A DNA stretch of 64,000 nucleotides from Tribonema minus (lineage: Eukaryota > Sar > Xanthophyceae > Tribonematales > Tribonemataceae): NCBI GenBank assembly GCA_017506865.1, contig JAFCMP010000368.1, forward strand, positions 372,001 to 436,000. The letters run 5' to 3'. The notes under the pieces were generated by a model. That model had not been told where the DNA came from, did no database searches, and saw only the letters and a list, made by a program, of their open reading frames with translations. Numbering within the stretch: the stretch's first letter is position 1; every line of letters starts with the position of its first letter. Below are positions 281-63,469 of the stretch, piece by piece. A program made the position numbers and the translations under genes.

Positions 281-3200
281 TCATCGCGTCGGTAATGTGC
301 TCCCGAGAACGTCAAGAAAGATCTTCAAGTCGTCAGCGCTGACGTGCAGCGCGCGGCGCCCTATGTCGTACAGCAGAAACTGCCCGCTGCAAACGTAGCG
401 GCAATTCGCAGAGCACGGAAAGGAGGGGATAAGCGGGGACGGTGGATCGAGCTCACAATAGGCGCTGAGGTCGTGACCGACCAAAGTTTACATTCTTCTA
501 CAAGTACTAATCTGCCCGCTGCAATGTGGTGGCAATGCGCAGAGCACGGAAAGGGAGGAGGAACGGGGTTAGCGGATCGAGCTCACAAGGGTACTGCAGC
601 TGAGACTGTGACCCGCCACAGCTTAGAATCTTCTTCTTCTTGAAGTACTAAACTGCCCTCTGCAATGTGGCGGTAGTGTGCAGAGCACGAAAAAGGGGGG
701 GACGGGGGAAGCAGCTCGAGCTCACTACATGTAGGTGACGAAAGACGGGGGGGGGGGGGGGGGGGGTCAGCAGGTCGAGAGCTCACTGTATGTAGGTGTT
801 GCAGCTGACCGCAGTGCGCAGAGCACGGAAAAGGGGGGGGGGGGGGCAGCATGTCGAGCTCACTGTAGTTGTTGTAGCTGTGGTCATGAGCCACTTAAGT
901 GCATATGCCTCTGCTTGCCATTCTGTTACAGTATCTTAGACGCTGTGCCTACGCTTTGTGGCTCTCGGATTGCTTTTGATGTGCAGATTGAAGTGAAGCA
1001 TTTTCCGCATGTTTTTTACGTGCGCAGCAAGTGATACCGGAATTAGTATTGCTGAGAGGTATGCAGGCTCCAGTAATGGCCACACGTTGCCGAGCGGTGC
1101 GCTGTACAGCGCAACGCGCGCTTCAGCAAGTGCTAGCTGATGATGCATGACTTTCCCCAGCATGCGCACACATGGACACGAATGCGACACTGCATGACAT
1201 GAACTGTGCCAAGCGACTGGTGCATTGCAGGTTTTGCTGACACAACGCATCTCGGTACGACAATAGCACAAGTTGTTCGCGTTTGACAGTGCACAGTGCA
1301 TCACATGTTGCAGTCGGGTCCTTTTGGGCATGTGCGCTGTCAAATGCGAACAACTCGATGATATGAGCTGTGTTGCCTGGTAATAGCGCCGCTCTACAAG
1401 CAGCGCCAGCCAAGCCCCCAACTTCAATGCATACTTCAACTCTTACTTCAAGAATCCTAACTTCAATCCCTTGCTGTGTTACCTGATAATTGCGCCGCTC
1501 CACAGGCAGCGCCCTCCAAGCCCCCTAAACAACGCCCCAAAACCCCCTTCTTGCACCTGCGCAACAGCAGTGAAAGCCATATTCATAGAAGTATATAAAT
1601 TGAGATGACAAGATGCAGATATGTGTATATCAATTCTTGCTCAGTCCGCAAAAAAGCCCAGATGGTGGATGTCCTTGGACCTTGCAACCAGAATCTACAT
1701 GTGTCTTTGTGAACACATTGAAAGTGTCTCAATGAGCGTTGCCGATCAAATGTGCCTGTGCGCCAGCAATGGAGACAGCAGCACATGCATTTACATCACG
1801 AGCCAAAGGCAGAAGGCAACCGTGCTTTCCAGGGACGGTGTGTCTTGCTGTGCAACTGGAATGCTGTCACACCGCATGCCTTCACAGCATGGTAACAATG
1901 GACTGGTGTCATGAACAACACCTTTTAATGCCCCCCACCCTGAGCAACCCTGACCCTAACCCGTCATCTAACTCTAAAAAAACAAGCGCCAACACTACAC
2001 TACAACACTTCAAACTTGAACTCGAATGCAAGCGCCCAACTATACTCTTTGTGCATCCTGGAGGCACAGAGGAGCTACGGCTACAACTGTACCTTCACCC
2101 CATGAGTAACCCTAATCCTGACCCTAAACCTAACTCATACAGAAAAGCGCCACACTGCAACACTTAGAACTCTGTGGTGTATACCACACCGTGCAATGGG
2201 GCATTTGAAGTTGTTGATGCTTGGTTGGCTTCTACGGTGCGCATCCTGAGCAGCAAACCAGTTAGGGTTAGGGTTAGGGTTGATTGTAACCCTAACCCTA
2301 ACCCTGAAATAACCTACAAACCACACTACTGACTAGCCTTTTGGTGATCCCAACAGCCTGCACATTTTCATAACATTCACCAGCCCTTCAGCGGCAGCAA
2401 AATATCTGCACTCTGCACAAATACAATGCCTACAAACCCTTTGGTGGTTCCAAAAGTCTGCACATATTGCACCACCTGCCAACCCTTTGGTTGTTCCACC
2501 AGTCTGCATATATTATACTACCTACCAGCCCTTCGGTGGTCCTAACAGTCTGCACATGCTTCGAAGTGCAGCAAATACCTGAGGTTTATATAAAAGCAAA
2601 CATTTCAAGTTGAAGTATGTACTACTTACCAGCCCTTTGGTGGTCCCAAAAACGGTGGCCGCGCCGCCCTGGCGGTTCATGGTGCTGAGCACTGTGTCCG
2701 CTGGCTGTGATACAATGGCCGCGCACACACCAGCAACTAGGCCCGAAAGAAGCGATACGCCAGCCTGACAAGTAAAGGGGGGAGGGGAGGGGGGGGGTGA
2801 AAGTTGCCCCCGAACTCTGCAGTCTGACAGTATAAAAGCGCCTAATCATGACCACCGCAGCAGTGGTTGGTGAGCGGGGAGGCAAGAGGGGGGTGGCTGT
2901 GATACCGCGCACATGCCAGCAGCGAGGCCCAAAAGAAGCGATACGCCAGCCTGACAAAGTAGGGAGGGGGAAGGGGAGGGGGGTATTGCCTCAGAATATC
3001 AGCAGTGTCTGGCGTATGAAATAAATCGCCAAAGTACTGCCACCGCAGCAGTGCCAAGGCTAGCCCAACCAAGCAAGGGTGAAAGGGGGCGGCGGGGCGA
3101 ACAAGAGAACATCGTCTCAGACTAAAAGCTGCATACAAAATAATCGGTTAGCACCACCGCAGCAGTGACCAAGTGAGGAGGGAGGAGGGTGGGGAGGAGA

Positions 3201-6200
3201 CGGGGAGGAACACATACGAATGTGCCTTAGAATGTAGGCATTCTGACACGAGATGACCGTCAAAGCACCACCGCTGCAGCAGACCAATCAAGGTGAAGGA
3301 GGAATTTGGGGGGTAAGGAAGTGGGCAGCACCACGGTGAAATGCTGTCTCAGAATTATCCGTGTTGACTGACAAGCAGTCCGACACATGAAAAAAATACC
3401 GGAACAGAACCACGACCACAGAGACGCCAATACGAAGTGCTGCAAAGTATGGCAGTTGGTGCTGTGCACGGCGTGAGAGCCTGATGGCCAAATGGAATGT
3501 CCCTTGAAAGGGGGGGGGGGGGGGGGGGGCTCACCATCCCTGGTACTGTAGCTAATTCAAGAGCTTAGGTTTAGGGCTAGGGTTAGCTGAGTGCGCATCA
3601 GCTGCTGCAGAACCCAACAAACTGAGAAGCAAAGCACTCTGTGCACCTGTGACCAGTGATCACACCATAACGAGCATCGCCGAACTCGCATATGCATAGA
3701 TAACTTCAAGTGAAAAAAATTCAAATGGATTAGACTAGGCAGCTGGGCTCAATCACATGCCTGACATGCTGTTCCGGGCTTTTTCAAGTGCGACGCACCT
3801 GTGATATGATTACTTCAAGTGTGACGCACCTGTGACACGGACGAAGCCGCCAGGTCCGGCAGGGCGCGGTAGACGGCCTCCGAGAAGAAGTCAAAGATGA
3901 GAAACTTCACCATGCCAAAGCTGACCTGCAACACCAAGGCAAACGGCGTGCGCAAACGTCATTAAACATTATGACCAGGTGTTGTCATACATACATGCCT
4001 ATCGAGTGAGCAAAGGCGGGCACCCCTCGCACAGCCCACCCTGCTCTCCCACTGCGTTGCACATCGCGATTATCGTATGGCTCATGCACACTTGCATACA
4101 TACATACCTGTTTGAATGAGCAAGGGGGGAACTTGTACAGCTGAGCTGAGCGCTGTCACAATAAATACATACTTATACATACATACCTGCCGAAAGAAAG
4201 GCGGGAAACCCCTCATACGGCCGAGCTGAGCGCTGTCACAATGATTGCATACATACATACCTGTCGAATGAGTAAAGGCGGGAAAACCCTCATACAGCCG
4301 AGCTGAGCGCTGTCACAATGACTACATACATACGTACCTTCTGAGCGAAGGCGGAAAACCCCTCATACAGTCGAGCTGAGCGCTGTCACAATAAATACAT
4401 ACTTCTACATACATACCTGCCGAATACGCAAATGTGGGAATCCCCTCATACAGCCGAGCTGAGCGCACGTCATGTCTCGATACATACATACATACCTGTC
4501 GAATGAGCAAAGGCGGGAACCCCTCGTACAGCTTTCCCCACCCCTGCTCCCCCACAATAGTGCGCAGCACTGCGGCACCGCCCCCCAGGCTTGGCTCGGA
4601 GACCTGCCTGCAGATGCCAAAGGCCAGGCACACAACACGACTTCATGAAACTTCCAAGTTGAAGTAAAATAATTCTACTGTCGAAATTCAACAACAAAAA
4701 CAATATGCAGCACTGCCGCACTCCCGCCCCAGGCTTGGCTCGGACACCTGCCTGCAGACGCCAAAGGCCAGGCACACAACACGACTTCATGACACTTCAA
4801 GTGGAGGTTGAATACTCTGAAGTTGAGGTGCAATCACAAAAACAGAATGCAGCACTGCGGCACCGCCCCCCAGGCTTGGCTCGGACACCTGCCTGCAGAT
4901 GCCAAAGGTCAGACAAACAACATGGCGGGGCAACATCGCTTCATGACACTTCAAGTTGGGGTTGAATAAAATTCAATCACAATCACAGCACGCAGCACTG
5001 GCGCACCGTCCCCCAGGCTTGGCTCGGACACCTGTCTGCAGATGCCGAAGGTCAGGCACACAAGGTGATGAGGCAACATCGCTTCATGACACTTCAAGTT
5101 GAAGTTGAATAGCTCTAAAGTTGAGGTTGAATTACAATACGTGTACGCAGGCCGATGCACAGCACCACACCCTCACCCTAGCTCCAGTCCAGTCACCCCT
5201 ACCCGTACACCCGTAGTGTGTGTTAGCCCGACACAGCGTTAAGCCCTAGCTATGGTCGTATATCATACTACCACTTCTGTAATCGTTGCACTGACCTGAT
5301 TTCCACGGGATCAGCAGGGCAGACACATGTGCACGCCACGGACATCCCAACCCTAGCTGCATTCCAGTCTAATAACCCTAGCCCTGTATTGTGTGCTAGC
5401 GGTGCCCACGCTATGGCTGTATAGTAGATGTGAGTGTTGCACTGACCTCATTCTGACGAATTCGGCAGGGCACACACCGATGCACACCTCCCCGATCCCA
5501 ACCCTAGCTCCAGTCACTGACCCGTAGTGTGTGCTAACGTACAGTTAAGTCCAGGCCACAACTAAGTTTGAGAAGATTCAATAGCTTACTGACCTGATTC
5601 TGACAGATAGAGCAGGGCACACGCCGATGCACGCCCTCAAACCCTAAGCCTAGCTCCAGTCTAGTCACCCCTAACCCTAGCCCTGTAGTGTGTGCTGGCG
5701 GTGCCACGTTTAGCCCTAGTCATGGCTTGTGTGCTGCTTAAGTATGATCGTTGTGGCTTGTGTGCCAGACAAAACCTTCAATAATTGCTGTCCTGACCTG
5801 ATCCTGACAGATTCGGCAGGGCACACGACGATGCACGCCACCATTGCAGCGCATATGCCGGCCATCCAACCTAACTCTAGCTTCACTAACCATCAACGCT
5901 AGCCCTGTAGTGTGTGGCAGCGGTGAAGAGTTGAGCCCTAGCTAAAGCCGTGTACTTTGAAGTTGCAAATTACCGCTTCTGATCGCACTGACCTGATTCT
6001 GACAGATTCGGCAGGGCACACGCCGATGCACGCCACCACGGTTGCGCATGCGCCCGCCGCCAACACCAGCGGTACGCGGTAGGCCCATGCCGCCTGGAGC
6101 ATACATACCCGGGGGGGGGGACGGGTATCAGGCAGAGCATGTGAGACACGATCAGCGGAGAACAGCACTTTGAATATGTACATGAAGACGCTGTTTATCA

Positions 6201-9200
6201 TGGTATGTTGCTATTCGTCATGTCCAGAATCAAGTTCAGGTACGCATGCTTGCAGTAAGCATACCCCCAGGGTTACATAATAGAGCCTTTTATGACACCA
6301 AGGCGACAGCAGCGGCTTGTACATGTACATGAAGATGCTGCATATCATGGTATGCTGCTATTCATCATGTCTAGAATCAAGTCCAGGTATGCCTGCAGCA
6401 CGAGTATACATACCCCCAGGGTTACACAACAGAGCAGTCAGGACACCACCTGCGGAGGATGGCAGTTAGTACGTGTGCTAATATGCGTCGATTATCATGT
6501 CACGCAACCATTCGTGACACCCAAACACACCATGACACAGAGCACATCACGGTGACAGCAGCAGTTTGTGGGTGTACATGAGCATGTGCCACTTATCGAA
6601 ATACGCTACAGTTCATCATGTCCATTGACGTATGACAGCAGTTTGCGACGCGTGTACATACATACATACGCTGTTTATTGTGTCAAGCTACAGTTCAACA
6701 TATCTGAAAGCCGCGTCCAGGCAGCAATTGTCAAACCAGGCAACACCTGCGAGCGAGTTGGGACGTGTGACTTCATTCTTTTTCCTAACCCTCATCCTAA
6801 ACCTTTTCTTTGCCATTCAGGCACGTTGCCTGCACATAAGAGGCTGCGCTACCTACCTATGTATATACCATTATTCTGCACGCGACAAGTCCGCCACTGA
6901 CACTGCTTCATGCAATTGGGATGCGTTGAGATACCAACTTCAAGTCACAAAATACACCACACGCAGCACAGCAGTGGAGAGTTGCTGACGTTGTTATGTG
7001 TTGTGATACGTTCTACCTCTACATCATTCAGGGTGTTTCACCCCTACTAGCATCAGATGCAGAGTCACAAACTCGGCACTCTGAGTGTGATTTATACATA
7101 CATACCTCTGGCCCCACTGCTTCTGCGAAGGCGCGCCGCAGCAGCTCATACCCAGGGTACACCTGCGAGCAAGCCGTAAGAGTCATTAAGTAAGTGAGTG
7201 AATATGAGTGGACAAGTCAGCAAAGTCGTGCCGCAGCAGCTCATACCACAGGTAAACCTGTGCGCAAGTCGCAAGAAGTGAGTGAGTACGAGTAAATAGG
7301 GGAGCAGGCGCACAATGGAATAGAATGTAAAGCCTTTGCTGAGAGACATAGGACTTAACCCCATCCCCAACCCGAACACGAAAGCAACAGCGTATTAGTA
7401 CCATCTTTGTTGCTTGACGCAGGCAAACAACACCAGGCTCGCAACTCCATCAGAGCCCTGGCTGGTAGGCAACACAGAAAGGACGTGTATCAGCACAAAA
7501 CACCGTGTTCGCCTGGGTGCACCTACGGGCCAGCCGCAGGTGTCGTTGAGTACATGAGTGAGTATGAGTAAGCATGTAAGTAGTGGTGTTGTTGAGTGAG
7601 TGAGTGAGTATGAGTCAGCAAGTAAGTACTGCCGTGCCTTCCGTCCATCCGCTAGCTGTCCGCAGGCGAGCGACCTGCTAGCGTTGAGGCGTGAGGCATT
7701 GCCACTTCTTGGGTTAGTATTAGGGTTAGGGTAACGGCCGCAAGGGCCCCCAAAAAAAAGGTGTGGAGCACTGACATCGTGCTGTCACGCATGGTGCACA
7801 TTTGCGGTCACCACCGACGGAAGAGACAAGCCAATGCGCCTTAATAAGTCATTTCTGTCGCGCCACAAACCACGCCTTGCATGTGTCCACATGAGCGTGA
7901 AACTTGTGCGCAGGGTTTGTAGACTAGTGCCCATTAGATATCAACAGTGACTTGCGGGGTGCCAGGCAAATGACGCCCCCAATAATCCCACAACAGAACA
8001 AACAAATGTTCCAGAGATACGAACAAGCAAACAAGTTTTTGTTCCAGAGATACCAAGATTTCTTCTTTGTTTAGGGGTGCCCAAATAACAACAAAACTTA
8101 TGGGAAAAAACGAGTCACAGAGTCCATGGCAATTGAGCTGGGTACTGTCATGACTTTATACAAACACATAACCCCATACCCTTGTTTGCCGTGAAGCCCT
8201 CGCCCTGAATTCCCCAGCATGGTTGCCCCCCGGGCGTGCAGCAAAACTGACATGTCCTCTTTCGCCATCAAAACAGATACCGTATGTATGTTGAAGACAA
8301 GACCATACTCTACATACCCATACCCTTACTCACCGTTAGCCCATACCACGAATACCCCAGCATGGTTGCCCCCGAGCCCTGGAGAAGTGCTGACATGCCC
8401 TCTTCAGAGACAATGCGCGATGCGGCCTGCATATTCACATACATATGGGTGAATTGAATGGTAAGAATTAATGTATGAAAGGAAGGGTATACAGATGCGC
8501 GTGTGTGACATTCGTGAGGACTGACATGGGTGAGTGAATGAATGCATGAATGAAGGGGAGGGTATACAGATGTAAGTGTCATGTATATACATGAGGACAC
8601 CAGACATGCCCTCTCAGCACAAAATTGTGGTAGAAACGAGCTCACAGATCGTGGATTGCCTGAGGTTTGACATTAAGCAATACCTTTTGCCGGATGCAGC
8701 TCTTCACGCTGAGTGAGACTGCGCGTCTGAAGCGGCGCTTCGCAATCAAGGCTGGAAAGCATGTGCATGCGCTGTTCTGGGCAGGGTATGTGACAGCGCA
8801 GCAGTACCATCATACCTCTGATCGTGACATACCCTACCTACCCTGAGCAAAAACATGCATGTGCTGTTCATGTGAAGTCCACACAAACAAGACGCCGCCG
8901 CCTGCAACCCAATACGCTGAGTGAGACTGCGCACTGAAGCGGCGCTTCGCGATCAAGGCTAGCAGCATGTGCATGCGCCGTTCTGGATAGGGTAGGTGAC
9001 AGCGCAGCAGTACTATCATACCCCTGATAGTGACATACCCTACCTACCCTGAGCAACAGGCACCCTCGTCCAGCGACTCAGCTTGCTGAGATAACCGTGT
9101 TTCACAGATTTTTTTTTCACAAGATGCAATTTTAGAAATTGCATATGCAAAATACACTGTTTACGGGCATTTTGCAGCCTTGCTGGCCTTTTTTCAGCAT

Positions 9201-11723
9201 TTTGCTCGTTGAGATTGATTGATCGAGTAATCCTCATGTTGAAGTTGCCAAGAAGACAGGCATACCGCAAGAGCACTCGATAGCACTTGACGCTCCTGCG
9301 CTGCGCTTCTTGAGACTCTGGAGACACTCCTGAGTACTGATGCACAGGTCATTAGCTGCATGTCAGCCCCTCTGCAGGGTATGTATTGGTGTCCAATACC
9401 AACATACCCTGATGGTGACATACCCTACCTATCCTGAGCACACACCCTCATTCAGCGTCTCATGCTCTGCTGTGCCTTTCTGCATCATCTTGGGGTGGGG
9501 TATGTAAGTAGCGGCAATCAGGAGATGACATACATGAATGACCGCAGCGGCTCTGAGCAGCGCATGTGCCAGTTCAGGTAGGAAACGCATGGGTGACTAG
9601 AAGTATACAAACCTGAGGCAGTACGGAGTACTTGGCTGGCGCCAACTGCATCTAGCGTTTTGGATAGGGTATGTTGCACTGTTTTTGGTAGAGTGTGTAG
9701 CGGCGAATATAACAATACATACCTGCAGCAGTGCAGTGTACTTTGCTGGCGCCATCTGCATACTGGCGCTGTCTGCATATATAGGGTATGTTGTAGAAGT
9801 ACTTTTTCGGTAAAGTATGTATAAGTGACCAGAGAAATACATACCTGTGGCAGTGCTGTGTACTTTGCTGGCGCTGTCTGCATATACTTCGAAGTACAGG
9901 GTATGATGTATTGTTTTGGGAGGATATGTATGGGTGACCCAGGAATACATACCTGTGGCAGTGCGGTGTACTTTGCCAGCGGCGTCTGCATCCGGCGTTT
10001 TGGGTAGGTTGTGTATGCACTTTTTTTGGTACGGTATGTAGGGCGAATAGTGGTATGCTGTTCTGGCAGGGTTTGTATGGTGAACAGTAGGATACATACC
10101 TGCGGCAGTGCGGTGTACTTTTGCTGGCGCCGTCTTCATAGATAGGTACGATATCATGTTTGTGGTAGGGTATGTATGGTGACCAGAGGAAGGCATACCT
10201 GTGGCAGTGCGGTGTATTTGCTGGCGCCGTCTGCATAGTTAGGGTATGTTGTACTGTTTTTGGTAACGCTGAGGAAGCGCACCAGGCAGGAGTCCGCACA
10301 AGCTGTGAGGACGTGCGGCAGCTGCAGCAGCACGAACAATTTGACCACCTTTTTTGGGAATAATTCTCCTTTTTAATGATTTTAATCAATTAATGGAAAA
10401 CCAAATTATTTAAAAGGGCAGGGGCGGCAAAGCCAGCGGCGGAGGTATCGTCGTCCATTGCGTTATCGCAAGCCGAGGGCACGCCCCAAGAGCCGTCGTA
10501 AGCCAGCGTAGCGGTGCTGCTGGGCACGAACTCCGACGCCGCTGCTGCCGCCGGTGCCACTGCTTTCAGTGCCCCAGTCGCGTCCGTAGCTGGTGCTGTT
10601 GCCAACGACCTAGCGCTACCCTGGTCTGGAGAAGCGGCGGAAGTGACGGCGTCTGGGTGGCACTGCGCCCATTCCCCCAGCATGGACCTCACTGATGCGG
10701 CCAGCACCGCATCCAACACTAGGGTCAGGTTAGGGTTAGCATCCAGCACGCTGGGCAAGCGCGGCCGCAAGAATACGAGGGAGCAGACTGCAGCAGTCGA
10801 TACCGAGGCCGCCGACACCACAGCAGCAGCAGCACACCTTGACACTTCCTGTCCACAACTTCAACTTCATCTTGAAGTTGGGTGGTCCGCGTTCAAATCC
10901 CTTGAGGGGCCCAGTATGGTGAACATTAGGATGCATACCTGCGGCGGTGCGGTGTATTTTGCTGACGCCGTCTGCATAGATAGGTAGCATATACTGTTTG
11001 TGGTAGGGTATGCATGGTGACCAGAGGAATACATACCTGTGGCAGTGCGGTGTACTTTGCTGGTGCCGTCTGCATAGTTAGGTACGTTGTACTGTTTTTG
11101 GTAGCGCAGAGGAAGCGCACTAGGCAGGAGTCCGCACAAGCTGAGAGCAGGTGCGGCAAAGGCAGCGGCGGAGGTATCATCGTCTGTTGCGTTATCGCAA
11201 GCCGAGGCCATGCCCCAAGAGCTGTCGTAAGCCGGCGTAGCGGGTGCTGCTGGGCACGAACTCCGGCGCCGCTGCTGCAGCTGCTGCTGCTGCTGCTGCT
11301 GTCGTGTCGGCGGCCTCGGTATTGACTGTTGCAGCCTGCTCCTGCGTATTCTTGCGGCCCCGCTTGCCCGGCGTGTTGGATGCTAACCCTAACCCTAACC
11401 CTCACCCTGACCCGGTTGGATGCGGTGCTGGCCGCGTCGGAGAGGTCCATGCTGGAACAATGGGTGCGGTGCCACCCAGACGCCGTTGCCGCTTCTCCAG
11501 ATCAGGGTAGCGCTAGGTCGTTGGCAACTGCACCAGCGGTGGTGGGTACGGACGCGGCTGGCTCACTGAAAGCAGCGGCATCGGCGGCAGCAGCAGCAGC
11601 GGCGGGCGCGGCGGCAGCAGCAACGCTCCGTGCATTGTGCTTGGCAACGTGCACAGGAGCAAGGGTAACCAGTAGACACTCTGTGGTCGAGGTTGTTGCA
11701 TTGTCCACGGCCGGTCAAGCGCG

Positions 11724-11760
<37 letters not shown>

Positions 11761-14700
11761 ACGGAGATGGACTCGCTGGAGAGCGCCATCCAGCGCGGAG
11801 ATTACGCCGTCCTGGCACAGCAACTGCTGGAGTACAGCTGCACCAACCACGCCGTGCAGCAAACCTTCAGCCACGGCCTTACAGAGCAATCTGTCCAGGT
11901 CTTGAAGGAGGTGGCTGACGAGTTCCGCCTCGGCCACGTCCATGTACTGCCCACGGAGCGCGACGACAGCGCCGGCGCCAGCGGCGACGGCAGCGGCGGC
12001 GGCGGCAGCGGCGGCGCCGGCGCTGTCGTCGCGCTCCGTGGGCAGTACATGGACGTGGCCGAGGCGGAACTCGTCAGCCACCTCCTTCAAGACCTGGACA
12101 GATTGCTCTGTAAGGCCGTGGCTGAAGGTTTGCTGCACGGCGCGGTTGGTGCAGCTGTACTCCAGCAGTTGCTGTGCCAGGACGGCGTAATCTCCGCGCT
12201 GGATGGCGCTCTCCAGCGAGTCCATCTCCTTGGGGGGGGGGGAATCAGGCGCCATTCCTGCTGAGGTTGATGCGAGTGCTGCGCTTTCAAGTTCTTCAGA
12301 ACACAGTACAGGAGGGTGTGTGTACCCAAGTATGATGCATAACTCCAATGTCATCGTATTGCTTGCGTTGGCACAGTGCTCAGCGCTCTTAATCTTCATC
12401 GCAATCACAGCGGTCGCTGCACTCGTTTTGCCTGCGGTGGCATGGCATAGAATAAAATGGGCGCGGTGCCACCCAGAAGCCGTCGCTTCCGCCGCTTCTC
12501 CAGAACAGGGTAGCGCTAGGTCGTTGGCAACTGCACCAGCGGTGGTGGGTACGGACGCGGCTGGCGCACTGAAAGCAGCGGCATCGGCGGCGGCAGCAGC
12601 GGCGGCGGGCGCGGCGGCAGCAGCGACACTCCGTGTATCGTGCTCGGCAACGTGCACGGGAGCAAGGGTAACCAGTAGACACTCTGTCGTCGAGATTGTT
12701 GCGTCGTCCACGGCCGGTCTGCCGCCGCTGCACTGCCACACACCGCGCCTGCTTCTTCTTTTTTTGGTCTTGCCATCACCTGTTTCCGCAGTGTCCCCTG
12801 CGGCAACTGCGCCCTCGCCACGTGCGGCGGAGTGTGCGACGGCGATAATCCCAATAATAGTCATTTTTAAGTAGTATTTCATCTTATCTTTCTTTAAATA
12901 AGATCGGATGTAAACCTTATTTTCATTGAAATGTATGGAAAGTCTTGGTCTTTTGATCAGGTTTTTTATGACAGCAACGGCGGGAGCGGCGGCGACAGGG
13001 ACAGTGGCAGCAGCTGCGGCAGCAGCAGCGACGGCGGCTTCAGGCGCCGGTGCTGGCGCACTCAGGTCGCTGTCGAGGACTCCAGGAGCCGTCGCTGCTG
13101 CTGCCACCAACCCTGTTGGTGATGGTGAATTCGGTGGTGCTGCGGAAGAGGACGCCTCTACTGCGCTGGGGGCAAGCTCTGGTACTGCCGGCTGTGCCAC
13201 TTCAGAACCCGCGCTGGGTGCCAGAGCCAAGTCCACGTTGCCCTCTCACCTTGGTCCTGCATTTCCACCTCTGAGGTGGGCAAGGACACCCACTCGTCCC
13301 ACTCCGTCTTGCCCGCATGCCCAATGATGCCATCGAGCCCCATAGACCCGTCCAGCTTGAACCACCAAGGCTTGAAGCACGGCGCTGCAGCCTCCAACCT
13401 GAGGCCCCGCAGCATCGCAAGGAGCGCAATCGCCGCGGTGACCGGTGGAACCGCAACCGCTTATCAGCGTCAGGCCCAGCGTCGCACTACTGCAGCTACG
13501 CTGGAAGCGGCAGCTTCGAGGGCCTCCGATGCCATGAGCAGCATCAGCAGGGCGTCGGCGGCGGCGAGCCCAACAAAGCCGCCCAGCTTGAACAACCAAG
13601 GCTTAAAGCACGGGACTTCATCGTTGGCAGTCGCATCCGCCTGTGCTGTCGCCCATGGCTTGCTGACGTGCTCCACGGCGGCGGCGGCGGTGGTGGCGGC
13701 GGCGGCAGCGGCGGCGGCGGTGGTGGTGGCGGCAGCAGCGGAGGCATCCGTGTTAAAGTTTATCGCTGCTGTTGAAGTTCGTCGCCGCCTCGTCGCGCCC
13801 CGCGTCTCGTGCACTTACAGTAGCCATGTCCACTGCCGTTACACCGCCAGCAGCAGACGCGCTCGTGGCACTCATGTCAGCAGATGAACCGCCGTTGCTG
13901 CGACGTCAATGCCCTGTGCGGCAGTGCATGCGCCCGCCGCCACCACCGCAGCCTCCGCTGCCACCGACGCCCTGCTGATGCTGCTCATGGCGTCGGCGGC
14001 CCTCGGTGCTGTCGCTTCCAGCGTTACTGCTGGTGTGCGACGCTGGGCCTGACGTTGATCAGCGGTTGCGGTTCCGCCGGTCACCGCGGCGATTGCGCTC
14101 CTTGCAATGCTGCGGGGTCTCAGGCTGGAGGATGCAGCGCTGCGCTTCAAGCCTTGGTTGTTCAAGCTGGACGGCGTTGGTGGGCTCGATGGCATCATTG
14201 GGCATGCGGGCAAGATGGAGTGGGACGAGTGGGTGTCCTTGGGCACCTCAGAGGTGGAAATGCAGGACCAAGGTGAAAGGGCAGCGTGGACTCGCCTCTG
14301 GCACCCAGCTCATCTGAAGTAGCACAGTCAGCAGTACCAAAGCTTGTCCCCAGCGCTGTAGAGGCGTCCTCTGCCGCAGCACCGCCGGAGTGCCCATCAC
14401 CAACAGGTGGCAGCAGCAGCGATGATGGAGTATGAAACCTGCACACCTACATTGCATGTGCCTACATACCTGCACAGGTTTTATCCACAGTGGAATTACT
14501 CTTGTTAGTACACCATGTACTGGTCCAGCACCACCAGTTCAGTACTGTTCCGATCCTGCGCCAGGACTGTTTCTCCACTTGCACAGGCAAGCACCTGCAC
14601 AATAATCACTTCTTTGCAATCCAGCCTGCCCTGGTCTAGTGCTGTTCTGCACTTTGCATTGGGTCCACCTTGGGTGTCCTACTCTGCCACGGTGTTTAGT

Positions 14701-26066: not shown

Positions 26067-26154
26067 CCCGCTGCAGGTTCCGGTGCCGTTCCGTCGCGCT
26101 CTCAGTGCTAGTATGATTCACAACACGCGACGGGAAGTGAAGTTTCTTCTTGAA

Positions 26155-26248: not shown

Positions 26249-26282
26249 GGTTGAGCACACGATAATCGGGCGATAACTAAAT

Positions 26283-51300: not shown

Positions 51301-54300
51301 GGCAACCAAAGTTTATGTGCACAGCTACTTGTACACAGCTACTTGGAGATTCGCCATTAACTTGAGATTTGCTAGCGTGAGGGGTGGGGTGGATTACTGG
51401 GTGGGGGGGTGGGGGGGCACTTAAATCAGGGCTAGTGTTGAGGTAAATAAGCCTAGCACCCAGTGTGTGTGTACTACTAGGTTCAGGTTATAGGGTTAGG
51501 CTACTAGTAGGTCGTCCCTCACTGCGCACGCCTTCAGTCGTGCAAGGCGTGTTTGCTGTCGTTTGATGCGAACCACAGCCTATGGTTTGTTACGTGCAGT
51601 CTCTTCTTCCATACCTTGCTGCTGGTTTTGTGACATTTGGGTGTACTCAACACCGTGCCAGCGGCGCTTACCGTGTACCCCTTTGTCCTCTGATGGTGGT
51701 GCGCGCGCAACAGCCGCCCTAGGTGACGCTCCATCTGTTGAAGTTGTACACTTTGAGTTGCACCTGCAGTATGTGGCGCACTCGGTGCCGCTGCTCTCTG
51801 GACAGCGCCTGTGAGGGTTCATCAGTAACTACTTCAAAGTAGGAGTACTTGCCTTCCTGCAACTTGATTTGATCATGTATCACAGGCGACTTCAGCCTTG
51901 TCAACAACTGCTCCATCTGTTGATGTCGTACACTTGCGACGCTCCATCTGTTGAAGTTTTGCACTTCAAGTGACACCTGCAATTTGATGCGCCCGCAGTG
52001 CTTCTGGTCGCGGGCCGTGTCAACTCGTTAACCACTGCCTAATTTCCTGAAATTTCTTGATGGTTTGCTCCGTTTCGCAGCCGCCATGCGTGATGCAGGG
52101 CGACTTCAGCCTCATCAATCGCCGCAGCGCCGAGAACGGCATGTTTGAGGTGCGTGCTGGCAGCAGATGACCTTGACGTGTTGAAGATTTCAGTTGGGTT
52201 AGGGCTTGGATTAGGGTCAGGGTTTGAAATAGAGTTAGGGATTAGGGTTAGCGAGAGGGACCTTGGCATGCTGAACAACGAAGATTTCAGTTAGGGTTAG
52301 GGTTTGGATTAGGGTCAGGGTTTGAAAAAGAGTCAGGGATGAGGGTGAGGGAGGGGGGGGCTAAACAGATGACCGTGATGACTTCAGCTAGGGTTAGGGG
52401 TTTGGAGTAGGGTTAGGGTCGGGGCTAGGGTTAGGGTTGGACAACCTTGTCACGTCTACGCGTAATGTGCGCCCATTCAACATTGTCAACTGACGCAGCG
52501 CCGATATGTTATCATTTTTATAATTACTTGTTTTTTTATTTTGAGGTGATTGGACGATCGCGGCGGAGGAGTGCCAGAGAGGACGCATGGCATTTTCTAC
52601 TACCTTAACGTAGGGTGAAGGAGACACGAAATGCCGCCATGCAGATGCTGTGGTGGCCCACACCTTGACTCTTACTCCTACTCTTCCGCCTTAGCTTTGC
52701 GAGGGTGAAGGGCATGCGCAACGCCACAATGTCGTGCATGCATGTGGTTGGCATTAATGGGAGCACGCAGTTGTAGCTGTTCAGGCTATGCGACATAACT
52801 GTACTTCATAGGGGGGCGAGCGTGGGGGGGGGGGGGGGCACACTTCAGCGCAGCGTTGGAAATGGCGTATTCGATGTGTGCAGATAATGCTCTCTTGAAG
52901 TACCTCCCGTACTTGAACTTGGACTAAGTGGATTAACTTATTAATAAACTAGATGGTCAGCAAATTCTCTGCAGTCTCTTGCACCCGAACCCCGACCCTA
53001 ACCCTGACCTAACTTTTACCTAGACTTACTTTAACCCTGCGCCTTAACCTTTACCACCATCAACTCCAATTCTGTTTTGATCGTGGACTTGCATGGGCCC
53101 GTGGGTTCAGATCAGAAGGCATCAATGTACTCGTGGACTTGCAGTGACGTACTTCAGCTGTACTGCAGGTGTAGCACACGTCCAACGCAGAGACGGGGGG
53201 TAGGACTAGGGTTAGGGTTAGGGTTAGTGTCAGGGTTAGGGTTTGGGTAAAGGTGTGCGACGAGAGTTTCACCGCCTTTGGCGCTTGTGCATGCGCTTCT
53301 ATGTTCTGGAAACACGGGACCCGAAGTACGATTGTTAAAACTCGTCTTGCTGCCAATTCAGATGGCAGGGCTGCTTACACGTCAACACGGAGCGCGTGCG
53401 TGCTTCCTCGGCTGCGACGTGCTCAGAGAGGCCCGCGCTTCACCGGTATGCATGTATGTTCATGCTGATGCAACGTAGAGAGCTGTTGCTCCCTACGTTG
53501 TTGCTCCAGACTGGCAGACGCAGACATCAAGGTGACCAATGCATCAGAAGACCGACGCCAGCCGTGTGCTGCTAGCAGCGGTTATCCTGCGTTCTACTTA
53601 CACAGGGTTAGCCCTAACCCTAGCAATGAGCACGTAACTGCTACTATGGTCCAACAATGCTTTAGGGTGTGACCACAGCCGCCCTCCGCCATTTTCGACT
53701 GCAGGGCTGCTCTCCCATCAATGAAAACGGGGGCTTTCTCGGCTACAACGTGCTTGGGGGGGGTGTTCTCACCGGCAAGTATCTGGACTCCCCCGCTGCT
53801 GCTGACCTGCCGACAGAGGATGCGATGAAGGAGAGGCTGAAGGCCCCCCGTGGCAGGTATATATAGAAATATTGCTGAATTTTGATGCATCGAGGCTGCT
53901 CGTGTGGAGAAAGCTGGCATCGCGGCAGGTGTACATGGAAACATTGTTGAAATTTCATGCGTAAGGGGTGTCCGCATGGAAGAAGTTGGCATGCACGTTT
54001 CTTCTGCACGCGGATGGATGTTGGCAACGCGGCTGGGACGACCAGCGACCTGCCGACAGAGAGCGCTATTAAGGAGAGGCTGAAGGAACCCCGAGGCAGG
54101 TATGGAAAGCCTGTTCTGTATCCAGGCGTCGCGACTGATTGTGTGGAGGAAGTGCGTTTTTTTTGTGTTTTATGTTGTTTTATGCATTAGGGTTGTTTGT
54201 GTGGAGGAAGTTGGCATGCCGTATCGCTGGTGGTTTGCTGAGCGCAGACATGGCGACCGCCGCTGGAGGCCCACATTGCAATCACATGGGGCATGTAGCT

Positions 54301-57300
54301 CAAGACTCTGTCTTGACAATCTGACACTGTAGGGCATGCATGCACCTGCCGACAGACAGCGCGATGAAGGAGAGGCTGAAGGCCCCCCGTGGCAGGTATT
54401 ATAGAAATGCTGTTGGAAGTTGATGCATTAGGGCCCCCCGTGGCAGGTATACATAGAAATATCATCAAGAATTTATGCATTAGGGTTGTTGGTGTGGGGG
54501 ATATAGGCTTACAAGTGGAGGAAGTTGGCATACAAATGTCTTCTGCACGCGGTCGGGAAATGGCAATGCGGTTGAAAAGACATGCGCATTCAATGGAGTT
54601 TTCGCCTCTCGCAGAGAACAGGGGGTACGTATACATTGATGATTGTTTTGCAGTTCACTAAAGACACAATGCCTGCGGCTGCAGGGCCCGTTCTGCGATG
54701 CCTGTTGACGTCTAAATCAAAAAGAGACATCTGGTTCAACTGTCCACCGTTGTCGCAACAGAAAATTCAAGAAGCATTATCGTGAAGGTTCTTACGTGCA
54801 CCTTGGCAGGTTCCAGAAAGCGGATGCAAATCAAACACTGCATATCTTCATGACCGTTTGGGCGCCACTCCGTATCAATTTTCAAAGGTAGGTCTAGTGA
54901 GCCCTAAACCCTAACCTCAGCCCATAAACAGGCATTTCGACTGCATTACGGCAAGCCGATCAAGCGGGCGCAAATCCAATGCTGCATGTGCCTGTGTCTC
55001 AACCTAAGTAATTACAGCACCAGAAATGATGTTGTTTCCGTAAAGTAATGAACCAGCAACTGGTTCACGGATACCATCGATGTCCACTGGAGGAGCAGCG
55101 ATGAACGCAATAATGTAACAAGTTGTGGCTTTGCTGAGCGCAGACACTTCAATCGCCGCTGGCGGCCCACTTCGAACCACATGGGGGCATGTATGTATTG
55201 ACAATCTGATACAACGGGGGCATGTATGTATCGCTGTCCATTTGCTGAGCGCAGACACGACGACCGCAGCTGGCGGCCCACTTCAAACCACATAGCGCAT
55301 GTATGCATTGCCTGCTTACGCACAGTGGGAGCATGTATGATGCCTGCTTACACACATTGGGGCATGTATGTATTGCTGCTTGTTTACTGAGCGCAGACAC
55401 GATGACCGTGGCTGGGGCCCCACTTTGTACCGTTATAGGAGCGGGCCGGCAGCAGAGGCGACCAGAGCCTATGCCGCGCTTGCTAAACAGGCGGGCATAT
55501 CTCCGACACAGGTGAAGTCTAAGTTTGCATACAACATACACTGATGTACCGGCACACCTGTGATGTGTAGTACTCTTGAGGTTCCACACGAAGTATCTGT
55601 GAGTAGGGGACAGCACAGCGCTATTGGGACGGCAGCAGAGGCTACAAAGGCTTCCACCGCGCTTGCCCCACAGGCGGGCATGACTCCGACACAGGTAAAG
55701 TTGAAGTTTGCATACAGTGAACTTGAAGTGCTGGCAGAACTGTCTATGTGCTCACATCACAGCTGTGAAGTGTACGCAAGAGGTTGCGCTGGAATAGCGT
55801 CATGTCATGTGGGCTTTTTGCGCCTCAAGAAGCGAAAATCAACAAAAACATTCAGGTCTCGCCCATCTTGGCCATCCTCATGCGTGCCAATGTTGTGCGA
55901 CGCCTGCTTTACGCATGGACTCTGACGTTGACCAGCACTTCATGCTACTTTTGCATAGCGTTTTTGTCAATCCTGAGCCACAGATGGCTTTACGATGGTG
56001 CAAGCCGCAAACACTTTTGTTCGTGACGATACATTACATTGAATGTAATGTTTTTGAAACGGGCGCACACCAACAAACTTGGAGCGAATGTCAAGTCTTA
56101 GTCACATCGCAGTAGTCTCACCTGTCTCTTTTGTGACTTTTGCATAGCAGCTGGCTCTACGATGGTGCAAACAGCAATCAGGGCTCACGTCCGCGCTGCT
56201 GGGGACTTCAACTATGGACCAGTTGAACGAGGGTCTCAAGTGTTTTGCGGACCCAAAACCCCTCTCAGATGTGAGTTGAAGTTCTAAAGCTCAAGAAAGT
56301 TGGCACAGATTCGTACTCAACCTTTCAATGGACCAACTGAATGAGGGCCTGAAGTGCTTTGCTGACCCGAAGCCCTCTCAGATGTGAGTTGAAGTTCAAA
56401 GTTCACGACAGCTGGCACAGACTCATGCCTTTAAAACCTTACTCAAATTTGTGCTTACAGACCATAGAGCAGGGAGGTGATGGCGACAGTCGGTTGTTTT
56501 GCTTGCAATCATCACCCCTCTCACATGTGAGTTCATGCTTGTTGAAGCGTATCAACAGATTCAACTCAGGTTCGTGCTTAGAGTCACTTGGGATGAACAC
56601 TCATGAAGCATCGAGCCAGGAGTTGGTGGCAACAGGCGGCTGACTCATTGCTCCCCAGCACCTTGAAATGCGTAGGAAACCTGAAGACTGACCTGAACCA
56701 GCAGGCCCACTATAGTAACAGGTGGCAACACAAAGAAAAAGTGCATCGGAGCCTCATCGCCATGTCTCTCACCAGGTGAGTCGGCGATTGCCAGTTGAAG
56801 TGGTGGACACACAACTTCAACTCGTACATCCTCACAAGAGTTTGCGAACCAATCACTTCTGTCGAATACACTGAGTCGGTGCAGGGCAACAGCTCCGCAG
56901 GTTTGCCACCAGGCTCCTGGGGAGGAATGGCAACCTGACAAGCTGTAATTAGCGCAACTGAACTTTGCTATTGAACCACACCACCTAGGAGCTTCAGATT
57001 GCCAGTACTCAGCTCTGCAGACCGTGCACTGCAGCACAAAGAAGGCAGCTTTTACCCATGTGTTTTTTCATTTGCACAGACCTTTTGTTCTGTGACGTAC
57101 ATGATGTCTGATATTTCAAAGCAGTGATCCTGCAGTCGACACCTCATCTTCCATAAATGATCCAGCGAACACTTGCAGCGTTTCAATCTTTACCTAGTCC
57201 TCTTGCAGCCGGCAACAGCATTGTTGACGGTGGAATGTGGGCATGAGCATGGCTGACAACTGCTGCCGTGCCGCCGCTGCTGTGGCACGGCTTAGGATTA

Positions 57301-57934
57301 GGGTTAGGGTCAGTGTTGGGGTTGCTGCGACACCCTGACATCATGGGTCCACGCTCACCACTTGCTGCAAGGGTCGGAGTGCACTCCGAAGTACTGCTGC
57401 TGCTGCTGCTGCACAGCATGGTGTTGTGCGTCCGCCACCAAGCTCGCTGCAAGGCTCGCAGCGCCATCAGGATGATCTCAGCCCCCGCACCAACAGTCGA
57501 GAAAGTGCACTTGAGGATTGGTCACAGCACACACATCGCCAAACCAACCGTCGAGAAAGTGTGTGTGAAGCATTTTTCTGTGACTGTTGTAGAGACTGGG
57601 GTGCAGTCTACGGCAGTGTGTGTGACGAATTATATGTCGCTGTTGACTTCTTGATCCTACCTCACCAGGCTCCCAATGTCGTACAGGCGCCGAGATGCGT
57701 TGCATCGACAAGAGCTGGGCGTACACGGCGCACAGCAATGCCAGTTGTGCCTTTCACCTTACTCTCTGTTGCGTCTCCTATTTCTGCTGCATCATGCGCT
57801 GCAATGGCATGCCTCAGGAGCTGCTGTGGGAGATTGACCGCGTGCACATGCGGAACCGCCTGCCCATCTTTGCCAGCACCAGGGTCGGCAAGGACTGGGA
57901 TGGGGAGGGCGAGATAGGGGAGCGCATACCCTAG
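37082..57934 (+). CDS. Aldo/keto reductase family oxidoreductase, plastid-targeted, 16 exons, 496 aa
   Basis: Exons: 37082-37181, 38360-38432, 39309-39399, 40229-40258, 41696-41841, 42610-42655, 44423-44495, 46271-46404, 47982-48044, 48986-49056, 50750-50840, 52081-52149, 53705-53856, 55397-55511, 56151-56270, 57818-57934. Phases agree at every join and the total is 497 codons. Residues 1-26 are a signal peptide ending STAA before Phe27 (AAFAGV), the heterokont plastid motif. [14 protein letters not shown] (57-70) running to AANA|A (80-84) is a twin-arginine-like lumen signal. The mature part is a Tas-like (alpha/beta)8 reductase: [88 protein letters not shown]. Catalytic residues Asp158, Tyr163, Lys199 and His233 are present. 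The expected role is NAD(P)H-dependent carbonyl reduction in the plastid, possibly the thylakoid lumen; substrate unknown. Intron 5 uses a GC donor. Exon 2 (38360-38432) is the least certain; it was chosen because only it supplies the required phases. Confidence 0.91.
37655..37910 (+). repeat. GCAATGCTGAGCACTG repeats and a dispersed-unit copy in reductase intron 1
   Basis: ATTGGCAACGGTGCAATGCTGAGC words recur near 37648, 37710 and 37773, split by GTGTCAAGCACT. At 37845-37905 a copy of the dispersed unit follows (see 50318-50490), with GCGCCCAGGTGGTCAATGCA and AGTACCTGTACGACAAT. Confidence 0.8.
40975..41640 (+). repeat. Three acceptor-edge copies of exon 5 (reductase intron 4)
   Basis: Copies at about 40982-41045, 41258-41335 and 41560-41635 repeat CAGGTTGTCCGCACCGTGAA and CACAAGCGCTGCGG. 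The third extends to GTTGTCTCTGAGGTGGGAATG before diverging, covering about 70 bp of the exon. The real exon starts at 41696. ATTCATGAATTCATCA runs separate the copies. Confidence 0.92.
44265..44345 (+). repeat. Acceptor-edge copy of exon 7 (reductase intron 6)
   Basis: CTTATCCTCACTGCGCAGTA followed by CCCCATTCCTAGCAGCCGTC repeats the exon 7 acceptor and 30 bp of exon (real start 44423). Donor-edge copies of exon 6 (GAGCAGGTGA) are at 42722 and 43148. Confidence 0.85.
45120..46190 (+). repeat. Seven acceptor-edge copies of exon 8 (reductase intron 7)
   Basis: Copies near 45136, 45292, 45468, 45625, 45720, 45925 and 46108 start with an AG acceptor and ACCGGGGCGGCG. The last three continue through GTGGTCATCGCCAGCAAGAT in the exon's own frame (VVIASK), then share a tail reading ISKHWGY in place of ITGGSNV. 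The real exon starts at 46271. Unit length is about 180-210 bp. Confidence 0.93.
46490..46960 (+). repeat. Donor-edge copies of exon 8 (reductase intron 8)
   Basis: GAGGGCAGCCTCCGGCGACT and GGGCACAGACT recur at 46508-46555. GTCCGCACATACAGCATGGA followed by CCTCTACATC is at 46628, and GGGCACAGACTACGGGTATG is at 46929. TTAGGG tracts surround each copy. Confidence 0.8.
47845..47905 (+). repeat. Acceptor-edge copy of exon 9 (reductase intron 8)
   Basis: TTGCAGCTTCACTGGCCAGC followed by GCGGTACACGCA repeats exon 9's acceptor and LHWPARYT codons, 130 bp before the real exon (47982). Donor-edge remnants ACCAGGTGAT lie at 48125 and 48261. Confidence 0.88.
49120..49290 (+). repeat. Two donor-edge copies of exon 10 (reductase intron 10)
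   Basis: TTTGAGGAGATTGCCGAGGC, CATGGGTAAGCTCGTCAAG and GTGAGT repeat at about 49127-49175 and 49233-49285, each with a complete donor. The real exon ends at 49056. Unit is about 110 bp. Confidence 0.93.
49905..50670 (+). repeat. Four acceptor-edge copies of exon 11 (reductase intron 10)
   Basis: Copies near 49910, 50022, 50498 and 50618 repeat CTGCAGGCAGGGGCGCATA, CGCGGCTGGGGC and ATCTGCAA, then break off into ACTTGAAG-type sequence. The real exon is 50750-50840. Confidence 0.92.
50318..50490. repeat. Inverted cluster of a dispersed unit ending in QRISVPVR-like codons
   Basis: GATGCAACGCATCTCGGTAC plus CTGTACGAC occurs forward at 50326-50375 and reversed three times at 50374-50480, giving a strong hairpin centred near 50373. 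Single copies are at 37845-37905 and 57675-57735, and a fragment at 1238-1262. The outer part (GTGTGCGCCCAGGTG) is also shared. Confidence 0.88.
51005..51910 (+). repeat. Exon 11 donor-edge and exon 12 acceptor-edge copies (reductase intron 11)
   Basis: CTGGAGTTGAGGTA-type donor copies lie near 51012, 51058 and 51205 (the last with GCGGCAGCTGGAGCTGAG). The acceptor copy is at 51880-51910 (CACAGGCGACTTCAGCCTTG). Real junctions: 50840 and 52081. Confidence 0.8.
52195..52445 (+). repeat. Interstitial TTAGGG-like block (reductase intron 12)
   Basis: GGGTTAGGG, GGATTAGGGTCAGGGTTTG and related words repeat three times, about 100 bp apart, together with GATTTCAGTTAGGG. Another block lies at 53205-53250. 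Confidence 0.85.
53345..53455 (+). repeat. Acceptor-edge copy of exon 13 (reductase intron 12)
   Basis: GCAGGGCTGCTTACACGTCA, TGCTTCCTCGGCTGCGACGT and GCT match exon 13 (53705 on) over about 65 bp with gaps. Confidence 0.8.
54030..54465 (+). repeat. Three donor-edge copies of exon 13 (reductase intron 13)
   Basis: ACCTGCCGACAGAGAGCGCT, GGAGAGGCTGAAGG and CCCCCGTGGCAGGTAT recur at 54047-54104, 54349-54402 and 54431-54453. Real exon end: 53856. Confidence 0.92.
54220..55300 (+). repeat. Three acceptor-edge copies of exon 14 (reductase intron 13)
   Basis: GCTGAGCGCAGACACGACGA, CCGCAGCTGGCGGCCCACTT blocks occur near 54237, 55134 and 55240. The real exon starts at 55397. One donor-side copy lies inside this interval, so the two ladders interleave. 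Confidence 0.9.
55610..55705 (+). repeat. Donor-edge copy of exon 14 (reductase intron 14)
   Basis: GGCAGCAGAGGCTACAAAGG through CAGGCGGGCATGACTCCGAC to ACAGGTAAAGTTGAAGTT repeats some 75 bp of exon 14 with a usable donor, 110 bp after the real exon end. An acceptor-edge copy of exon 15 is at 55975-56020. Confidence 0.92.
56320..56535 (+). repeat. Donor-edge copies of exon 15 (reductase intron 15)
   Basis: ATGGACCAACTGAATGAGGG to CCCTCTCAGATGTGAGTTGA (56330-56392) repeats 55-60 bp of exon 15. CCCCTCTCACATGTGAGTTC at 56515 is a shorter copy. Confidence 0.92.
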
Positions 57935-62400: not shown

Positions 62401-63469
62401 TTTTGCCATGAATGCAGGTATGTATACCTATACCAATACATACCTGCCGCACGTTGTAGGTGTCAGTGAGCCGCGCCGGCGACAGGTTGGCGGCAACTGG
62501 TACCAGCACAAAGGCAGTACGTGTTGCAAGGCTCTCTACACACACATGGCCTCAATGATGATGAACGGCTGCAAAACATCGCCCTGAATGCAGGCATACA
62601 CACATACCTGCCGTGTATTGTAGGTGTCAGTGAGCCGTGACAGCGACAGGTTGGCCATCGAACAGGCAGTTTTTTCAAGAGGCTCACGCATATGGTCTCA
62701 ATGATTATGAAGGTGATGATAGAAGCTGCAATACATCGCCCTGAATGCAGGCATACATACCTGCCGGGCATTGTAGGTGTCAGTGAGCCGCGACAGCGAC
62801 AGGTTGGCGGCCGCCCACGCCAGCGCAAACGCAATGGCGCAGCAGAAGGCAAAGCCGAGCCGCCTGCACCGGGGCGAAGGGCACAATGATGTGTCATACG
62901 ACGCTCACAGAAGTTGCACTTATGATTCTTACCCTAACCCCAAGTCTGCGATGGCGCAGCAGAAAGCCACGCCGCCTGCAATGGGGCAAAGGGCGCGATG
63001 ATGTGTCATACGAACTTCACAGACAGTGCCAATTTTTTGCGCTGTCCCCGGGGCCATGTGCAGCAGGGAAGCAGGCGCATATGCTTCTGATGGGCACAAA
63101 GGGGCACGCCACCTTCACCCCAATGATTTCAAGCAAAGGCGATGATGCAGCAGAAGGCAAAGCCGAGCCGCCTGCGCCGGAGGCAGCGGGCACAGTTTCC
63201 AAGTCACGCGGGGGATTCACGAAAGGTGCAGTGGTCAGCAGGAGAAGCAGCGCGGAGAGGCCCGCCGCCGCCACCACTCAACTTCAACTTCGACATGTGA
63301 CATTGTGCCGCTTGTGGTTACCCACACAAAAACCTCTACTGAGCAATGCAGACAACGGTGTGAATGATCACTTTCATATGCTCACCTGCTGTGCAGCGGC
63401 GTCAGCAGGAGCAGCAGCGCGGAGCGACCCGCAGCCGCCACCGACGTCGCGGCGTAGACGGCGGTGTTG
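59407..63469 (-). CDS. Small membrane protein with DnaJ-like cysteine zinc-binding motifs (3' part, four exons)
   Basis: Exons, 5' to 3' on the minus strand: 63386-63469, 62761-62863, 61651-61796, 59407-59521. All are GT-AG with matching phases (2-2, 2-0, 0-2, 2-stop). The first exon needs two bases from an exon upstream that I could not find, so the 5' end is open. The translation has two hydrophobic stretches (SALLLLLTPL and FAFCCAIAFALAWAAANL), a basic linker (MRKRSLKRR), CPCCIGFGIEPCDLCGSTG, then CPKC...WCERCGGSG and a short tail ending LFPG. The CxxCxGxG-like spacing resembles the cysteine-rich domain of DnaJ and the small plastid zinc-finger proteins of the BSD2/LQY1 kind, but no J domain is present. 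A membrane-anchored zinc-finger chaperone or disulfide-handling role is inference. The gene converges on the reductase gene. Confidence 0.72.
59523..59815 (-). repeat. Acceptor-edge copies of the last zinc-finger exon
   Basis: CACTGCCAGCGCCGGGAGAA and GCACCTGGC recur near 59620 and 59770. The real exon edge is 59521, followed by a G-run of about 28 bp (59526-59553). Confidence 0.85.
60215..61565 (-). repeat. About ten donor-edge copies of the zinc-finger exon ending at 61651
   Basis: CTCACTTTGGGCACGGATCC, GTCAGGATGAACTTCATCTC and GTGCACGCGAAACCC recur near 60217, 60335, 60487, 60605, 60703, 60820, 61040, 61180, 61299 and 61487. The best copies preserve about 65 bp including the donor GTGAGC/GTGAGT. 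TAACCCTAA words fall between copies. Confidence 0.92.
61855..62035 (-). repeat. Acceptor-edge copies of the zinc-finger exon starting at 61796
   Basis: GTGCAGCAGGGGCAGCGCCG, CTTGAGCGACGGCTTGCGCA and GGCCGCGCGCCTGCAGCAG repeat at 61866-61938 (about 60 bp of exon). A shorter copy is at 61990-62025. Confidence 0.9.
62425..63200 (-). repeat. Edge copies of the zinc-finger-gene exon 62761-62863 on both sides
   Basis: Donor-side copies at 62444-62500 and 62608-62660 carry CATACCTGCCG, GTAGGTGTCAGTGAGCCGCG and CGACAGGTTGGC. Acceptor-side copies at 62947-62985 and 63137-63180 carry GCGCAGCAGAAGGCAAAGCC. Confidence 0.9.
63225..63275 (-). repeat. Donor-side copy of exon 63386-63469
   Basis: GTCAGCAGGAGAAGCAGCGC followed by GGAGAGGCCCGCCGCCGCCA repeats the AAAG(R/L)SALLLLLT codons of the neighbouring exon about 170 bp downstream in transcription. 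Confidence 0.85.

Follow-up and report, generated by a model that had tools for sequence, protein, structure and literature searches.

Ladders of exon-edge copies in the introns of Tribonema minus probably reflect recurrent local duplication of non-coding DNA

In a 64,000-nucleotide stretch of the genome of the xanthophyte Tribonema minus (hereafter the window; positions 372,001 to 436,000 of contig JAFCMP010000368.1, or C368), the introns of three spliced genes hold ladders of partial copies of the adjoining exon edges. These ladders are probably the product of recurrent short-range direct duplication running through non-coding DNA, in which selection clears the exons and events that cross a junction leave fossils that lengthen the intron. 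The window, part of an assembly of 158 Mb in 554 contigs, contains a reductase gene on the forward strand, a phosphate-carrier-like gene and a third spliced gene on the reverse strand, and stretches of retroelement. The growth of long introns without mobile elements is hard to trace, since intron DNA loses its history. An exon is a slowly changing reference, so duplications that cross a junction can be recognised, dated and ordered.

A self-comparison of the window yielded 149 repeat pairs; 139 of these are direct, 10 are inverted and the majority are local. A preliminary description of the window, made from the letters alone, had proposed self-alignment with exons masked in turn as a check on the exon-edge copies that it reported, and the self-comparison bears it out. 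In six sampled regions, 266 segments scored above threshold in the real sequence and none in dinucleotide-resampled sequence. Under looser rules, which count edge copies within 2 kb (6 kb for one exon), 64 exon-edge copies lie at 28 of 53 junctions, and all three spliced genes carry them, as had been claimed. Counts of copies depend on thresholds; ours gave 64 where the preliminary description had placed over 80, and looser ones leave that larger figure neither confirmed nor excluded. Its statement that most introns show such copies was too strong. About half of the window's junctions carry them under the loose rules. When a copy must span the junction (reaching ~10 bp or more beyond the point in both directions, with E ≤ 1e-3, and lying no further off than 1 kb for carrier genes elsewhere in the genome or 1.5 kb in the window), 12 of 30 reductase junctions carry them and 15 of 88 (17%) in carriers.

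In the reductase gene, exon 5 (41696..41841) has copies of its 5' edge upstream at -132, -421 and -716, and exon 8 (46271..46404) has five, at -158, -348, -552, -806 and -974, along with a 3'-edge copy at +153. Copies of the 3' edge of exon 10 (48986..49056) lie downstream at +108 and +225. Exon 11 (50750..50840) has 5'-edge copies at -121, -244 and -717. Exon 13 (53705..53856) carries 3'-edge copies at +243, +539 and +589 and a 5'-edge copy at -336, and exon 14 (55397..55511) carries 5'-edge copies at -142, -253 and -1149 and a 3'-edge copy at +183. Between these last two exons, the donor ladder of exon 13 and the acceptor ladder of exon 14 interleave within intron 13 (53857..55396), an arrangement that the preliminary description had picked out correctly.

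The phosphate-carrier-like gene, on the reverse strand, has ladders of the same kind. The 3' edge of the exon at 14743..14811 (its last 39 bp plus the donor) is repeated seven times downstream at 9688..11075, with 76-88% identity, and six of the seven copies begin at one same exon base. Between this exon and its ladder lies a GC-rich block (63%) with several inverted repeats, 11100-14500, which looks as if it had been inserted after the seven-copy ladder formed. The exon at 5993..6093 has 3'-edge copies at +194, +399, +546 and +697, and the exon at 4496..4607 has ladders on both sides, with 5'-edge copies at -144, -285 and -428 and 3'-edge copies at +78, +161, +234, +311, +391 and +503. Two candidate exons of the third gene, also on the reverse strand and placed by splice score (18998-18808 and 18025-17930), have 5'-edge ladders.

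Such copies recur elsewhere in the genome. A search for mitochondrial-carrier exons gave at least 146 matches, from which we took 20 stretches of 10 kb and defined 89 exons; these regions were picked for widely spaced exons, so the sample favours long introns. Edge-type copies were found in 14 of the 20 stretches, and none in the remaining six (L034, L039, L046, L047, L049 and L050). The exon-edge copies are real and extend beyond the window. A nearby match was present for 28 of the 89 exons, edge-type in 25 and of another type in 3. One carrier exon is followed by eight successive downstream copies, each spanning the donor position and some intron, with the GT lost in some. Among 22 further carrier loci, 9 had a match. 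Ladders are visible at two of the 9 (L029 and L030), but at six or more the match looks by eye like homology between carrier repeats, and these loci were left out of the counts.

Taking the carriers, the reductase and the phosphate-carrier-like gene together, 66 copies span a splice site and contain part of both the exon and the intron next to it. Direction is uniform at the placed junctions: the 31 spanning donor copies are all downstream (15 in carriers, 6 in the reductase, 10 in the phosphate-carrier-like gene) and the 35 spanning acceptor copies are all upstream (11, 18 and 6, respectively), in keeping with the direct, outward spread that had been described. The sole exception in direction had come from placing reductase exon 10 on one of its own copies, a placement ruled out by P0001, a relative that fixes the identity of this exon. 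For 178 carrier exon edges, the outward flank was matched by 27 and the inward flank by 2. None of the 178 had an inverted match to the outward flank, and none matched a foreign intron, represented by one random 2-kb piece per edge from the window's two genes. Among exon-edge copies, inverted ones are very rare, with one exon in the 89-exon carrier scan, and inverted matches were absent from all 38 window junctions, two of which were taken at 46276 and 55431 and have since been moved to 46271 and 55397. At interior points, inverted matches occurred in 5% of cases in the reductase and 23% in the phosphate-carrier-like gene, which holds the inverted-repeat-rich block; in carriers they occurred at ~1% of interior points and at 2 of 88 junctions (0.03 of 39 and 0.02 of 49). 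When a duplication crosses a donor, the surplus can come to lie only on the downstream side, and when it crosses an acceptor, only on the upstream side. The two-sided pattern therefore needs no special mechanism; it follows from random local duplication combined with selection against insertions inside exons.

To compare junctions with the rest of the intron, we counted points spanned by a direct local copy. Summed over the carriers, the reductase and the phosphate-carrier-like gene, with the third gene left out, 35 of 135 junctions (26%) were spanned and 243 of 993 points in intron interiors (24%), so junctions were not duplicated more than interiors in a summed sample that is small and in which interior points within one intron are autocorrelated. 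Exon middles were spanned at 1 of 53 points, considering exons >120 bp only. Two observations weigh against an even spread of duplication: in both modelled genes of the window, junctions were nominally above interiors (12/30 versus 58/268 in the reductase, 8/17 versus 75/187 in the phosphate-carrier-like gene). This, along with a junction whose ladder has as many as eight copies, would favour a process in which exon edges, for example as transcribed, spliced or R-loop-forming boundaries, are preferentially copied outward. In the larger carrier sample, however, junctions were not above interiors (15/88 versus 110/538; difference -0.034, 95% interval -0.112 to 0.044), and exon-side matches should outlast others, since drift affects just one of the two partners, and this inflates the counts at junctions. 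We therefore consider a junction-directed process unlikely. A near-whole-exon copy with 94% identity, found beside a 96-bp exon in carrier stretch L044, also runs counter to the picture of exons cleared by selection. There, on the forward strand, the copy (2883-2978) lies 198 bp from the exon (3081-3176), apparently with both acceptor and donor, and could be a recent whole-exon duplication. Overall, duplication occurs across the introns and hardly at all in exons, and junctions resemble introns; a special exon-edge process is not supported. The repeated short duplications across junctions that the preliminary description proposed are upheld, and the bidirectional process aimed at exon edges is not, with interiors duplicated about as often. 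Exon edges are no special building material of these introns, which grow by local duplication throughout; the edges make that process visible.

If the copies are released from constraint and the exons are not, their differences should be unevenly distributed. Codon positions 1 and 2 would differ through changes in the copy alone, position 3 and the intron through changes in both partners, giving about a twofold excess in the latter, and the copied GT or AG would be expected to decay as positions 1 and 2 do. We examined 57 exon-copy pairs at 32 junctions, aligned without overlap; three of the 57 use the exon 8 acceptor at 46276 (now 46271), a position that also entered the nearest-rung, stop-codon, base-composition and copy-copy analyses. 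Divergence was 0.089, 0.097 and 0.227 at codon positions 1, 2 and 3, 0.195 in the intron and 0.106 at the copied splice dinucleotide, where 12 of 113 bases had changed. Relative to positions 1 and 2, the ratio was 2.44 (1.97-3.00) for position 3, 2.10 (1.68-2.58) for the intron and 1.14 (0.58-1.70) for the splice site; base composition predicts almost equal rates at the three codon positions. Of 64 copies, 5 contained an in-frame stop, in agreement with the 7.7 (3.5-13) that neutrality predicts. This pattern is as predicted for a neutral copy of a constrained exon. As the copy decays and the exon stays constrained, the match survives longest on its exon side and tapers off within the intron.

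Alternatively, the copies could be functional, serving as alternative splice sites or exon ends kept by selection. Many do keep both an open frame and a splice dinucleotide (GT or AG), and stops are few. The copied dinucleotides nevertheless decay as fast as positions 1 and 2, and 56 pairs contain 152 nonsynonymous and 127 synonymous codon changes, so that neither the splice ratio nor the codon changes reveal coding or splice-site constraint on the copies. Frame-breaking gaps occur in 11 of 56 copies. In addition, the 459-residue product of P0001 fits the joined exons, linking the same exon sequences without an inserted copy (for the reductase only, and as known from the product alone), although its C terminus corresponds to intron here. 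Selection for function is thus very unlikely. Two results do complicate a reading of simple neutral decay. Distant, real paralogous exons also give a ratio of 2.40, with position 3 near saturation, so the ratio alone is no proof of neutrality; the decay of the splice dinucleotides and the codon changes carry more weight. Comparisons between copies also have a position-3 excess, of 1.61 (1.09-2.12), with ladder means of 0.151 at positions 1 and 2, 0.243 at position 3 and 0.240 in the intron (15 ladders). We infer from this excess that the copies were born at different times from an exon that was changing at silent sites.

The ladders also appear to be ordered by age. In 24 ladders with at least two copies, distance and divergence agreed in 90 pairs and disagreed in 39 (permutation p = 0.0006), indicating that copies further out tend to be older; in this set the exon 8 acceptor was taken at 46276, and neither the exon 10 donor nor the exon 14 acceptor was included. 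For the nearest copy the trend is less clear, since in only 15 of the 24 ladders was it younger than the other copies on average (p = 0.31), and local exchange between the exon and near copies could give the same relation of distance to age. At sites where a reductase exon of the window differs from P0001, 19 observations could be made: the copy had the P0001 residue in 7, the exon residue in 7 and neither in 5. In the first seven, the copy most simply keeps an earlier state of the exon.

The spacing of the copies bears on how they arose. It has a median of 140 bp, with quartiles of 106-189; short spacings were taken from a diagonal scan, and the BLAST self-comparison gave no spacing <80 bp, which we took as a limit of the program. 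Closely spaced pairs are for the most part head-to-tail units; at 40-80 bp, 15 of 18 are. Over all spacings, homology reached at least 0.9 of the spacing in 43 of 105 high-identity pairs, and for the nearest rungs in 9 of 32, with 15 of 32 below 0.6. Many pairs are therefore not simple head-to-tail units, and some copies were made at a distance or rearranged later. The 62 of 105 pairs below 0.9, and one 64-bp pair with 97% identity at a spacing of 192 bp, would fit templated insertion, in which break repair copies 40-100 bp from nearby sequence in place of tandem duplication. Insertions made by break repair are often inverted, and inverted copies were found at none of the 178 carrier edges; the head-to-tail pairs at short spacing also speak against this route, and deletion between repeats can mimic its spacing. 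We regard templated insertion as a possible but doubtful source of the copies. Both tandem duplication followed by deletion and direct copying at a distance are possible, and slippage, template switching, unequal exchange and repair copying are all candidates for the molecular event.

Recurrent local duplication probably produced the ladders as follows. Short nuclear segments, with ladder steps of ~105-190 bp, would be repeatedly duplicated alongside themselves in direct orientation across the non-coding DNA that we sampled. When a segment crosses a donor or acceptor, splicing in this organism would presumably stay with the site joined to the complete exon, so that a surplus exon edge with its GT or AG would end up within the intron and lengthen it. 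Later duplications at the same junction would displace older copies outward, forming a ladder. Duplications within exons would be eliminated by selection, and the copies, which nothing maintains, decay neutrally while the exon stays constrained. Mis-assembly can also yield local near-repeats, and these copies are known from the assembly alone; most, however, are several to 30 percent different from the exon, they occur on many contigs and their decay is orderly, so we give an assembly artefact almost no credence.

Several known systems resemble these ladders in part. Introner elements are dispersed families that insert new introns, and share with the ladders a repeated sequence tied to introns, but each copy here resembles its own adjacent exon, and none of the 178 carrier edges matched the one foreign 2-kb piece with which it was compared. 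Tandemly duplicated arrays of mutually exclusive exons likewise place exon-derived copies beside an exon; there, whole exons are copied and coding constraint is kept, whereas the copies here are mostly partial, with the L044 copy as the exception, and decaying. Introner elements and exon arrays thus fail the features tested. Minisatellites and other local tandem duplications are direct, local and built of recurring units, and some of our ladders are plain arrays of this kind, but here unit length and breakpoint vary and the exon provides a slowly changing reference. A 2010 paper by Lehmann reportedly deals, by its title, with novel intron positions in Drosophila arising by intron sliding or tandem duplication; the likeness is tandem duplication at intron boundaries, and the difference that new intron positions result there. 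In the titles and abstract openings of the literature that we searched, we found no description of exon-edge ladders or of such intron growth. In the potato RdRp gene, a tandem duplication across an intron-exon boundary copied the splice signals and made a new intron (PMC4974935). The potato event is of the same kind as those here with a different outcome, since here the copies are many, lie within existing introns and flank both sides of the exon.

The gene models on which these analyses depend differ in their support. The predicted aldo/keto reductase gene (37082..57931, forward strand), Tas-like and with a plastid-type leader, is divided into 16 exons by 15 introns, each 639-1775 bp long, and its joined exons encode 495 amino acids without a stop. 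A homologue search with these joined exons found P0001, a EukProt entry with a transcript-assembler name, and 435 of 459 aligned residues are identical. Exons 1-15 were placed with P0001; exon 16, beyond the end of P0001, was placed by other relatives and splice score. Judged from these comparisons, the reductase model is firm. P0001 ends in VS, the two residues read at the start of reductase intron 15 (56271-56276), and its transcript may retain this intron. The mitochondrial phosphate-carrier-like gene (1483..15231, reverse strand), with nine exons placed, and the third spliced gene (17930..25985, reverse strand; roughly 26.0-17.9 kb) were modelled from homology, to carrier proteins in the first case, and splice-site scores only. 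Three candidate exons of the third gene entered the edge-copy test, placed by splice score only. Its thylakoid-lumen-type leader (25985-25700) and that of the reductase (37082-37181) have an AAFAG or QAFSS motif and a hydrophobic thylakoid-type stretch, features that suggest a secondary plastid of red-algal origin. When 20 long open frames were scanned with Pfam, reverse transcriptase was the sole domain above the cut-off.

The window holds other features as well. A 1401-residue frame with the reverse transcriptase domain and 70% GC occupies 26283-30488 on the reverse strand. Two direct repeats (31260-31584 and 36228-36550), 97% identical and ~5 kb apart, flank a long frame at 33519-34937 without a Pfam match, and could be the long terminal repeats of a retroelement. 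A short palindromic sequence occurs in both orientations in three reductase introns, at 50304-50493 (in tandem), 37848-37899 and 57674-57726, and is dispersed, unlike the ladders. Short telomere-like tracts (CCCTAA or TAGGGT) are scattered at 42533-42588, 53207-53248 and 61000-61037.

Across 53 introns with 71 kb in total, 25% of the sequence is recognisable local duplication. Longer introns have a larger covered fraction (Spearman 0.37, p = 0.006), which is 0.05 in introns <500 bp and 0.27-0.29 in those >1000 bp. This trend may be explained in part by the greater room for a match in longer introns. Along the window, coverage is 0.42 at 1483-9500, 0.44 at 15400-26000, 0.27 at 41696-58000 and 0.35 at 58-64 kb. 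It is lower at 36.6-41.6 kb (0.18) and 31.0-36.6 kb (0.12), and 0.00 in the reverse-transcriptase frame, a weak control as this stretch is also coding. The low coverage at 31.0-36.6 kb and in this frame fits younger, inserted DNA.

We propose tentatively, as a reading that is quite possible but still short of probable, that unusually active, genome-wide local duplication is a main driver by which introns of this lineage grow without the help of mobile elements. The ladders would then form an ordered, datable fossil record, in which some copies preserve earlier protein sequences of the exon. For gene prediction the copies are a warning, as the introns of this genome are rich in decoy exon ends whose splice sites look plausible. 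For the study of introns, such a record would make rates of intron growth measurable within one genome.

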